From Cryobacterium sp. N22 (GTDB taxonomy: Bacteria; Actinomycetota; Actinomycetes; Actinomycetales; Microbacteriaceae), in NCBI RefSeq assembly GCF_002929555.1, contig NZ_PJJP01000039.1, forward strand, positions 1 to 64,000: DNA of 64,000 nt, read 5' to 3'. A program made the translations under genes and the position numbers. The notes under the pieces were generated by a model that ran no database searches, was not told where the DNA came from, and worked only from the letters and a program-made list of their open reading frames with translations. Positions 5,940-11,932 of the stretch are shown here, piece after piece (position 1 is the first letter of the stretch; each line of letters starts with the position of its first letter).

Positions 5940-6034
5940 TAACCCCCGCTCTCAGATGAACCCGGCCCGGCCGAGTACCGCACTGAGCGAGGCCGCGCCG
6001 CACGCGCACGAACCACGGCATGAGAGGTGTTCGA

Positions 6035-7363
<1,329 letters not shown>

Positions 7364-7367
7364 AGAG

Positions 7368-8642
7368 TTGCCTCTGCGGTATGCGCCGGCGATCCTGCTC
7401 GGCAGGGTCGCACGCACCCTCGCGCGCTGGCGCAAGCCCGGTGGCGGGTCTGCGGTCCCCGGGCTGGTGGTCAACACCATCGCGCCCGGGTTCCTGCCGC
7501 GCACCCTGAACGGGTTCCCCGGCGGGCTCGTCATCGTCACGGGTTCGGCCGGTAAGTCCACGACCACCAAGATGCTCGTTGCCGCCCTGCGCGCGCACGG
7601 CATGTCGGTCTTCACCAACCAGTCGACGGCGAACATCAGCCAGGGACTCACCTCGGCGCTGCTGGAGCGGGTCAGCCTGACCGGCCGCATCGAGGGCGAC
7701 ATCGCGGTTCTCGAGATGGACGAGGGCCATGGCGCCCTGATCTCCGGCTCCCTGAACCCGCGCGTGGTCGTGCTGACCAACGTGATGGTGGACCAGATCG
7801 ACCGTTTCCACGACTCCGACATGGTTGCCGCGATGCTGGCCAAGATCGCCGCCCGCGCCACCGGTTCCGTCGTGCTGAACGCCGATGACCTCTACCTGGC
7901 CCGGCTGGGCGACGGCGTCGTTTCCGGCGTCACCGTGGCCCGTTACGGAGTGTCGGACGAGGTGCTCGCCGCGAACCCGCGGGGATTGGGCTACTCGCTC
8001 ACGTCGCCGACCCGGCTCGACGCTGCCGACGGCATGGTCCTGACCGGGGTCAGCGGGCTCGACGCCACCGTCCTGGTCGACGGCCGGGTGCACGAGCTGC
8101 GGTTGCCGGCCAGAGGCACCCACTACGCGGTGGATGCGCTCACCGCACTTGCCGCCGCGCGGTCGGCCCTGCTCGAGAGCTTCGACGCCGCCGTCGCGGT
8201 CGCGGCGATCTCCACCATCCCCCCGGTCTTCGGTCGCGGCGAGGTCGTGTCGGTGCGTGGCAGCACCGTGGAATTCGTGCTCGTGCAGAACCCGGCCAGC
8301 CTGCAGCTGAATGTGGACAGCCTGGACCCTGACACCGAACAGATCCTCGTCGCCGTCGGCTCCGACGTGCGCGACCCCTCCTACCTCTGGCCGGCCGACA
8401 CGTCCGGCCTCGGCCACGTGCAGATCGCCTCGGGCTCGAAGGCCTACGATATCGGGCTGCAACTGGCCTACGACGGTGTGATCGTCGACCGGATCGAACC
8501 CGACCTCGGGCGGGCCCTCGACGACTTCCTGGCTCTGCCGGAACCTGCCCACGGTGTCAAGACGATCATCTTCTCGGCCGACTCGATGCGGCGTACCCGG
8601 GCGCACCTCGGCCTGGAAACCAACGAAGCGGACCCGTCATGA
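7368..8642 (+). CDS. murT: MurT-like Mur ligase (DUF1727), divergent
   Basis: A 424-residue protein built like MurT, the ATP-dependent ligase that activates the D-Glu alpha-carboxyl of lipid II. Seen: an N-terminal segment, the P-loop VTGSAGKSTTTK (residues ~58-65), the Mur central-domain segment LTNVMVDQIDRFHDSD, and a C-terminal DUF1727 domain with VLVQNPASLQLN and DVRDPSYLW. Oddities: the P-loop reads SAGKS instead of TNGKT, and the protein contains no cysteine, so the four-Cys zinc ribbon of known MurT proteins is absent. The start is set at TTG 7368, just after sigA, because the family N-terminus begins there; upstream in-frame codons overlap sigA. Its stop overlaps the gatD start (ATGA). 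Confidence 0.85.
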   Translation: MPLRYAPAILLGRVARTLARWRKPGGGSAVPGLVVNTIAPGFLPRTLNGFPGGLVIVTGSAGKSTTTKMLVAALRAHGMSVFTNQSTANISQGLTSALLERVSLTGRIEGDIAVLEMDEGHGALISGSLNPRVVVLTNVMVDQIDRFHDSDMVAAMLAKIAARATGSVVLNADDLYLARLGDGVVSGVTVARYGVSDEVLAANPRGLGYSLTSPTRLDAADGMVLTGVSGLDATVLVDGRVHELRLPARGTHYAVDALTALAAARSALLESFDAAVAVAAISTIPPVFGRGEVVSVRGSTVEFVLVQNPASLQLNVDSLDPDTEQILVAVGSDVRDPSYLWPADTSGLGHVQIASGSKAYDIGLQLAYDGVIVDRIEPDLGRALDDFLALPEPAHGVKTIIFSADSMRRTRAHLGLETNEADPS

Positions 8643-9376
8643 CAGTCGACCACCCGGCAGACCTCACCATCGTGACCCTGCTCCCGCAGCTGCTGGACAC
8701 CAACGGTGACGCCGCGAACGCGCGGGTTCTCGCGCAACGCGCCCGGTGGGCCGGCCGGTCAGCCCGGATCGTGCCCGTGCAGTCCGTTGCTGATCTTCCC
8801 GAGACCGTCGACCTCGTCGTCATCGGATCGGGAACCGACACCGACCTCGTCGCCGCACGCGACGCCCTCAGGGCCCTGGCCGAGCCACTGCGTGCCTGGC
8901 TGGCCGGGGGAGTGCCCGTGCTCGCCGTCGGCACCGGCTGGGAGCTGCTCAGCGCCGGGCTCGACCTGGCCGACGGCTCGACGGTCGACGGTCTCGGCCT
9001 CGTCTCGGGGCGCGCGAGCGCCCTGCCCGCCCGCGTCACCGACGACCTCGTCGTCGACGCCGACGGGCTGCGCCTGCTCGGCTTCGAAAACCACCTGCGC
9101 GGGTACGCCGGCGCCGCGGCCCCGCTGGGCACGGTGCCCTACGGCACCGGCAACGGCGACGGAACCGAGGGTGCAGTTGCCGGAAGCTTCATCGGCACTC
9201 ACCTACACGGCCCGGTCCTGGCCCGCAATCCGCAGCTCGCCGACCGGATGCTCCGGTCGGCCTGCGCCGCCAGGGCGCTGTCACTGGCTCCGTCCGCGCA
9301 GACCGATGCGGTCGACGGCATAGCAAAAGCCGCACGCAACCAGGTTGCAGTGCGGCTCAGCCTCACCTCGGAGTAG
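8639..9376 (+). CDS. gatD: GatD-like glutamine amidotransferase, catalytic Cys missing
   Basis: A 245-residue homologue of GatD, the glutaminase partner of MurT that normally supplies ammonia to amidate D-Glu of lipid II. The family frame is clear: LTIVTLLPQLLDTNGDAANA at the N-terminus, the GFENH segment in the middle and IGTHLHGPVLARNP with the catalytic histidine. The nucleophile elbow, normally A-V-C-G-G-Y-Q, reads A-V-G-T-G-W-E, so residue 98 is Gly (codon 8930-8932) and the catalytic cysteine is gone. The GGGQDxEQ loop is also changed, to GSGTDTDL. It overlaps murT by 4 bp, so the pair is co-translated. It probably does not hydrolyse glutamine and may be a structural or substrate-positioning partner (inference). 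Confidence 0.85.
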   Translation: MTVDHPADLTIVTLLPQLLDTNGDAANARVLAQRARWAGRSARIVPVQSVADLPETVDLVVIGSGTDTDLVAARDALRALAEPLRAWLAGGVPVLAVGTGWELLSAGLDLADGSTVDGLGLVSGRASALPARVTDDLVVDADGLRLLGFENHLRGYAGAAAPLGTVPYGTGNGDGTEGAVAGSFIGTHLHGPVLARNPQLADRMLRSACAARALSLAPSAQTDAVDGIAKAARNQVAVRLSLTSE

Positions 9377-9417: not shown

Positions 9418-9654
9418 TTAGGACTTCTGGTCCTCGAAGAGTCGGCTCGACTCGTCGTGCCAGCTTTCGGCGATAGCGGCGAGCTTCTCCTGGTGCTTGC
9501 GTCCGTGGTGGGCGCAGAAGAGCAACTCGCTGTTATTCACGACTACACGAATGTAGGCCTGAGCGCCACAAGCGTCGCAGCGGTCGGCCGCGGTGAGCTG
9601 GTGGGGGGCGCCCTGTTGGTCGACGGCACCATTTTCGGTGGCGATCTGGGACAT
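9418..9654 (-). CDS. Small zinc-ribbon protein, DUF7455 type
   Basis: A 78-residue protein with one CxxC...CxxH zinc-ribbon-like motif (DRCDACGAQAYIRV, then LLFCAHHGRKH) and an acidic C-terminus. It resembles the DUF7455 family, widespread in Actinobacteria and without known function. The ATG at 9654 has a strong GGAGGAG ribosome binding site; a longer in-frame start at 9690 lacks one. It is convergent with gatD and divergent from the topoisomerase gene. Confidence 0.8.
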   Translation of the reverse strand: MSQIATENGAVDQQGAPHQLTAADRCDACGAQAYIRVVVNNSELLFCAHHGRKHQEKLAAIAESWHDESSRLFEDQKS

Positions 9655-9839
9655 ATTCTCCTCCTCCAGACTGATACCAGGTGATACCAATTGAATCCTT
9701 ACTCACCATGTAAACACGGCCTGGCTCGGATTGGGCCACAGTTGGGTGACATTTCGCTCACCGCGTAGCATTCTGCGCGGTGCACCCGGCGCGGGGAGCC
9801 CGATCGAGTGTCGATCGGGGCTGAACGCGTTCGGGTCGC

Positions 9840-9845
9840 TATTCT
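9840..9845 (+). promoter_or_regulatory. Leaderless -10 box of parE
   Basis: TATTCT ends 8 nt before the GTG at 9854, which is where the conserved GyrB/ParE N-terminus begins. No ribosome binding site is present. Confidence 0.5.
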
Positions 9846-9853
9846 TAACCGTT

Positions 9854-11932
<2,079 letters not shown>

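Follow-up and report, generated by a model that had tools for sequence, protein, structure and literature searches.

A Cys-less MurT/GatD-like pair behind sigA in Microbacteriaceae: a candidate for the enzyme that starts the cross-bridge of an unusual cell wall

In other bacteria, MurT and GatD add ammonia to a cell-wall building block. Group B walls occur in Erysipelothrix and Eubacterium limosum, and Micrococcus luteus carries a glycine on D-Glu. Listings of open-licence papers gave none that names the enzyme linking D-Glu to the bridge in peptidoglycan of group B. In S. aureus, according to the available parts of PMC3266927, neither MurT nor GatD is active alone, and the complex of MurT with GatD C94G lost the use of glutamine while retaining that of NH3 at pH 8.5, no use of NH3 being seen at pH 7.5. 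Thus, a GatD with glycine at this position can be a needed yet non-catalytic partner. Excerpts of PMC6085368 on the S. pneumoniae proteins assign a channel-plug role to GatD Tyr30 and, from models, a channel-gate role to MurT Arg135, and mention a cysteine tetrad in only some Actinobacteria. In Clavibacter, a genus of Microbacteriaceae, D-diaminobutyrate bridges D-Glu to D-Ala and some muropeptides carry amidated D-Glu, as described in the accessible portion of PMC9603630.

The window analyzed here is a stretch of 64,000 nucleotides from Cryobacterium sp. N22 (contig NZ_PJJP01000039.1), also of the family Microbacteriaceae, in which a murT-like and a gatD-like gene lie between sigA and a parE/gyrB-type topoisomerase gene (Table 1). 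The sigA stop codon occupies positions 7361-7363, the murT-like gene starts at 7368, and the two genes of the pair overlap by 4 bp (8639-8642). The window MurT matches PDB chains 7q8e, 6gs2 and 6fqb, and the Mur_ligase_M, MurT_C and GATase_3 domains all score over the Pfam cut-off. Against the NCBIfam equivalogs for isoglutaminyl synthase, both proteins stay far below threshold, with 81.3 and 79.9 bits for MurT (cut-off 800) and 94.8 and 72.7 bits for GatD (cut-offs 450 and 400, respectively). A search of the window's own genome for a second MurT found none, the sole match being the window gene. Plasmid homologues of the parE/gyrB-type ORF are annotated as DNA topoisomerase IV subunit B. Genes for nrdR, dihydroorotate dehydrogenase and cytochrome oxidase are found on a 465-kb Microbacterium "plasmid" record (NZ_CP072877.1), which may belong to a chromosome.

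Table 1. Features of the sigA-parE interval in the window, with residue assignments in MurT and GatD.
Feature	Position	Strand	Basis or remark
sigA	6020..7363	+	ORF; constant left boundary of the exchangeable slot
murT-like Mur ligase, type A	7368..8642	+	TTG start, 424 aa; Pfam Mur_ligase_M + MurT_C
P-loop GSAGKST	7542..7562	+	Lys present in 79/79 readable type A/B MurTs
MurT Asn89 (S. pneumoniae Asn85), acceptor carboxylate	7632..7634	+	79/79; role as given in excerpts of PMC6085368
MurT Asp118-Glu119 (S. pneumoniae Asp112-Glu113), Mg	7719..7724	+	79/79; role as given in excerpts of PMC6085368
MurT Val141 replacing channel-gate Arg135	7788..7790	+	Residue comparison
MurT Asp336 (S. aureus Asp349), third triad residue	8373..8375	+	79/79 type A/B; role as given in excerpts of PMC6113224
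gatD-like pseudo-glutaminase	8639..9376	+	245 aa; Pfam GATase_3; aligned to 5n9m and 6gs2
GatD Asn22 replacing channel-plug Tyr30 (S. pneumoniae)	8702..8704	+	Residue comparison
GSGTDTDL, altered GGGxDxxQ oxyanion loop	8825..8848	+	GSG for GGG in the window GatD
GatD Gly98 replacing nucleophilic Cys94	8930..8932	+	Codon GGC in AVGTGWE; phmmer alignment to S. aureus GatD Cys94
GatD Arg132 (Arg128/Arg142), glutamine contact	9032..9034	+	Alignment; role as given in excerpts of PMC6085368
THLHGP with His190	9197..9214	+	Catalytic His of HGP present in the window GatD
Small conserved ORF between slot and parE	9418..9654	-	Matches in 25 other loci of the compared set
parE/gyrB-type topoisomerase ORF	9731..11932 (first possible start)	+	Right slot border; matches in 25 other loci

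Relatives were collected at three levels. In the family sample, GatD was matched at 1e-8 in 86 of 120 genomes and MurT at 1e-25 in 97 of 120; in the order sample, GatD was matched at 1e-12 in 57 of 159 genomes, 51 of the 57 being read; in the class sample, a threshold of E up to 0.001 gave GatD matches, some of them weak, in 112 of 197 genomes, of which 48 were read. Types A, to which the window pair belongs, and B are Cys-less and form one clade (support 100/99), which in a tree of 80 chosen rows stands beside the Cys-bearing type C at a joint node of 92/86. Type C is the usual form in the order's other families, among those read. The 80 type A/B loci compared below represent 79 genomes (G306 contributes two) and include three genomes, G117, G187 and G450, from outside the 120. 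Residue counts leave out three loci from whose stretch GatD or MurT is absent (L016, L022 and L179); in addition, the cut contig of L134 has no readable site and the MurT sites of L103 are unreadable, so that MurT counts run to 79 and not 80. The other Cys-bearing loci number 76 (81 minus five duplicates).

A third form, type E, has neither the cysteine nor the catalytic histidine and is nested in the tree among Cys-less pairs from Bacillota; apparently, it is a second, unrelated Cys-less pair derived from that phylum. All seven type E pairs of the family carry the gate Arg, with His at both the plug site and the Cys site. The Cys label changes three times on well-supported branches of the 80-row tree, changes that we read as three losses. 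Of 54 matches in the order of Merdibacter, 49 loci were read: 32 have the cysteine and 17 are Cys-less, with TGNA or a similar motif, L319 among the latter having a Cys at the next position. GatD-like proteins with TGNA or a similar motif that lack the catalytic His and adjoin MurT were found in hosts from Clostridia and the order of Merdibacter (L278, L180, L181, L200, L202 and L310-L326); that of Vescimonas fastidiosa (L278) is recorded as a hypothetical protein.

Within the family, a type A/B or E pair is present in 84 of 120 genomes (A/B in 77, E in seven). GatD could be read in 83 of the 84, one genome (G234, locus L179) having been classed as A/B on its MurT alone, and was Cys-less in 83 of 83. 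Ten genomes have type C only, two a canonical Cys-bearing pair and two another pseudo-GatD pair (F/H), one of them with a gene for a CofE-like protein; 22 have no MurT at all, 16 of these with a CofE-like gene and six with neither. An A/B/E pair and a CofE-like gene are thus both missing from 19 of the 120 genomes (type C only in 10, a canonical pair in two, another pseudo-GatD pair in one and no MurT in six). Of the odd pseudo-GatD pairs, one (L174, G201) is surrounded by sequence of 42% GC that may be a foreign contig, and the other (L173, G249) has a CofE-like gene directly 5' of MurT. On a Leifsonia shinshuensis plasmid (L277:6724-9673), a Cys-bearing MurT/GatD pair adjoins a vanY-like M15 peptidase gene; it is an accessory Cys-bearing pair in a mostly Cys-less family. 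Type A/B was found in the window's family only, among the loci read, and the loss of the cysteine is confined to that family among the relatives read, save for the separate Bacillota pairs and two loci of family f28 in the same class (L129 and L130, from G061 and G024), in which a MurT/GatD pair reads AVDAGMA, with Asp at the Cys site, as a separate loss. The pair is not universal in the family, 36 of the 120 genomes lacking an A/B/E pair.

The original prediction had read, from the letters of the window, a glycine in place of the nucleophilic cysteine at GatD codon 98 and an altered nearby loop, GSGTDTDL. Both readings hold, the GGC codon aligning with Cys94 of S. aureus GatD, and both extend to the relatives: the nucleophilic Cys occurs in 0 of 80 type A/B GatDs as against 90 of 90 Cys-bearing pairs compared, and the GGG of the oxyanion loop is gone in 78 of the 80. 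The plug Tyr follows the cysteine exactly (0/80 and 90/90). The glutamine-contact Arg is invariant in a 24-row alignment and present in 74 of 80 type A/B GatDs. The His segment, which had also been described as kept, is indeed intact in the window as THLHGP, but a different amino acid takes the place of the catalytic His in 26 of the 80 type A/B GatDs.

Replacement of the channel gate in MurT runs parallel to these losses, the gate Arg being present in 90 of 90 Cys-bearing pairs and in none of the 79 type A/B MurTs that could be read. The ligase half is conserved throughout, all 79 of these MurTs having the equivalents of the P-loop Lys, Asn85, Asp112, Glu113, the hinge Arg and Asp349. The loss of nucleophile, plug Tyr, gate Arg and GGG together, with the ligase residues kept, indicates that the parts that would make and pass ammonia were lost jointly and that the ligase was spared. 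The same cannot be said of the zinc ribbon, whose absence from MurT had been singled out as a special feature. The window MurT (424 aa) contains no Cys at all and has an SAGKS P-loop, both in agreement with the earlier reading; fewer than four Cys are, however, also found in the MurT of all 12 Cys-bearing type C pairs of the window's family, and ribbon loss was thus ruled out as part of the change. The ribbon was judged by counting Cys: at least four are present in two of 80 type A/B MurTs, and outside the family some MurTs of type C have four or five. Two of the seven type E MurTs (L168 and L170) have one tetrad position changed.

sigA lies directly upstream of the type A/B MurT in 75 of 80 loci, and in the five loci where it was not seen the sequence upstream is short in three (less than 45 nt) and extends for 256 nt (L051) and 449 nt (L078) without sigA. 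It is also directly upstream in seven of seven type E loci, and in none of the 12 type C loci, read over 148-645 nt upstream. The region behind sigA was sought in 30 genomes devoid of an A/B/E pair, and the sigA locus was obtained in 29. Thirteen slots read at length contained, between sigA and parE, a PF01996 CofE-like gene (13), a PF14397 ATP-grasp gene (11), an alanine-racemase-like pair (eight) and an ectB-type diaminobutyrate transaminase gene (two). The racemase-like gene scores just under the alr cut-off (166.3 bits against 168). Genes of this cassette (CofE-like, ATP-grasp, racemase-like, transaminase) were observed between sigA and parE in L358-L370, and an ATP-grasp gene lies close to four of the seven type E loci (L118, L120, L170 and L171). 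CofE-like genes are confined to 17 of the 36 genomes that lack an A/B/E pair, the other 84 having none (Fisher 4.5e-11, with genomes treated as independent); the gene is located away from sigA in G288 and beside the H-type pair in G249. The exchange is visible within genera: g96 and g98 each comprise both A/B and CofE genomes, and g127, g132 and g138 both A/B and E genomes. In the 10 type C-only genomes, neither a MurT or GatD behind sigA nor a CofE-like gene was found, and the three of them read at length showed no cassette genes behind sigA. Judged by gene content, the sigA-parE interval is an exchangeable slot in which unrelated amide-ligase cassettes are swapped in one place.

That non-homologous ligases replace one another at a single site is an argument for a shared function, which, to judge by the genes for a racemase and a transaminase, may be the making and attachment of a D-amino acid, such as D-diaminobutyrate; the contents of the slot thus suggest cross-bridge synthesis. 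The diaminobutyrate transaminase is present in 21 of 120 family genomes, spread over several types, and is absent from the window's own genome, which counts against a role of the pair in bridge attachment. A division of labor in which type A would serve diaminobutyrate and type B other amino acids was considered and rejected, the transaminase not being sorted by type.

Could the slot instead be a neutral hot spot in which the pair is decaying? The faster evolution of GatD relative to MurT in 13 of 13 pairs, and the replacement of the catalytic His in 26 of 80 relatives, would be in line with decay. Yet dN/dS values, computed on stretches that took in some codons outside the genes, ranged from 0.12 to 0.38 for GatD and from 0.05 to 0.26 for MurT across the 13 pairs (some of them non-independent), well below 1; the pair directly follows sigA in 75 of the 80 loci, and the residues lost belong to the ammonia path, those of the ligase being intact. 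Decay thus strikes us as very improbable. The initial description of the pair as intact, overlapping and under selection is supported by the 4-bp overlap and by dN/dS values under 0.4 for both genes in the 13 pairs, and so is that of a dead glutaminase within a GatD retained under selection. With no Cys in any of the 80 GatDs of the clade and dN/dS of 0.12-0.38, the loss of the cysteine is evidently not a matter of chance.

The concerted losses, the retained ligase residues, the dN/dS values, the exchange of cassettes in the slot, the S. aureus C94G precedent and the Clavibacter bridge together favor the reading that the pair is a glutaminase-independent ligase that joins the first bridge residue to D-Glu, with pseudo-GatD as a non-catalytic partner, to which we assign a probability of about 0.58. 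In a lipid-linked precursor of the wall, MurT would turn what is presumably the alpha-carboxyl of D-Glu into an acyl-phosphate, with GatD as the non-catalytic partner that it requires. The attacking amine would probably be a free amino acid instead of glutamine-derived ammonia, namely the one that opens the interpeptide bridge, which would be Gly in some lineages and a D-diamino acid in others; with plug and gate gone, the amine site of MurT may admit a larger amine. In this way we infer a link of the pair to group B cross-bridges, and the pair is a candidate for the missing enzyme at the start of the cross-bridge in the family's unusual wall. The co-occurrence of an A/B pair and a Cys-bearing type C pair in two genomes (G250 and G262) counts against this assignment, as do the 19 family genomes in which both an A/B/E pair and a CofE-like gene are missing.

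An unlikely alternative to bridge attachment, though a more probable one than decay, is that the pair still makes D-isoglutamine, from free ammonia, with GatD as a scaffold only. The S. aureus C94G complex does precisely this at pH 8.5 in the experiments available from PMC3266927, and the amidated D-Glu of Clavibacter, as far as covered by the accessible portion of PMC9603630, means that an amidating activity may exist in a group B species, a point against bridge attachment as well. The same complex did not use NH3 at pH 7.5, however; moreover, the gate Arg and plug Tyr, both tied to ammonia transfer, are gone along with the Cys in all readable A/B loci, and the genes exchanged in the slot code for amide ligases, a racemase and a transaminase and for no amidase. 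Still more doubtful, in our view, is that the amine is joined to another carboxyl, for instance that of a different wall polymer or of a cofactor precursor. In its favor, D-Glu is a predicted substrate, PF01996, the family matched by the exchange partner, takes its name from an enzyme acting on coenzyme F420, and GatD has kept its glutamine-contact Arg in 74 of 80 cases. Against it, the MurT residues for the acceptor carboxylate and Mg are unchanged, the CofE-like protein of the slot reaches 34.9 bits, far under the cofE equivalog cut-off of 180.65, and the slot's racemase and diaminobutyrate transaminase fit the bridge amino acids of the window's family, such as the one described for Clavibacter in the available part of PMC9603630.

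Group B walls are otherwise known from Erysipelotrichales and Clostridia. A broader and more tentative proposal, whose chances we place somewhat under even, is that the sigA-parE interval is a cell-wall chemotype locus. Three unrelated solutions would be swapped there, the A/B pair, the Bacillota-derived pseudo-GatD pair and the CofE-like and ATP-grasp cassette with racemase and sometimes diaminobutyrate transaminase, each setting the residue that starts the D-Glu cross-bridge, and the pseudo-GatD pairs found in Erysipelotrichales and Clostridia would have an equivalent role. Bridge attachment can now be tested with a gene pair, two cassettes that take its place and exchanges that occurred naturally within genera; if the reading is true, a glutamine amidotransferase would have been turned into an amino-acid ligase through loss of its glutaminase.

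Compared to the MurT/GatD isoglutaminyl synthases of S. aureus (6gs2/7q8e) and S. pneumoniae (6fqb), the window pair shares the two-gene operon, the Mur ligase and GATase_3 domains, the ATP and carboxylate residues, MurT Asp349 and the HGP motif, but is devoid of the nucleophilic Cys, the GGG loop, the plug Tyr and the gate Arg; it is also devoid of the MurT zinc ribbon, as are the Cys-bearing pairs of its family. The S. aureus C94G mutant, as reported in the available parts of PMC3266927, resembles it in the Cys-to-Gly replacement and presumably in needing both proteins and in using an amine without glutamine; in contrast, the mutant is otherwise wild type, with gate, plug and GGG kept, and uses NH3 only at high pH. 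The type E or TGNA pairs, known from Bacillota such as V. fastidiosa and from seven of 120 family genomes, have both Cys and His replaced and in the window's family share the sigA slot with types A and B, but are of separate origin, their seven family MurTs having at least four Cys and the gate Arg. The CofE-like (PF01996) and ATP-grasp (PF14397) cassettes, finally, occupy the same sigA-parE position in the 13 slots read and likewise belong to amide ligase families, but these families are unrelated to those of the window pair, and the cassettes bring along a racemase-like pair in eight of 13 slots and a transaminase in two of 13.
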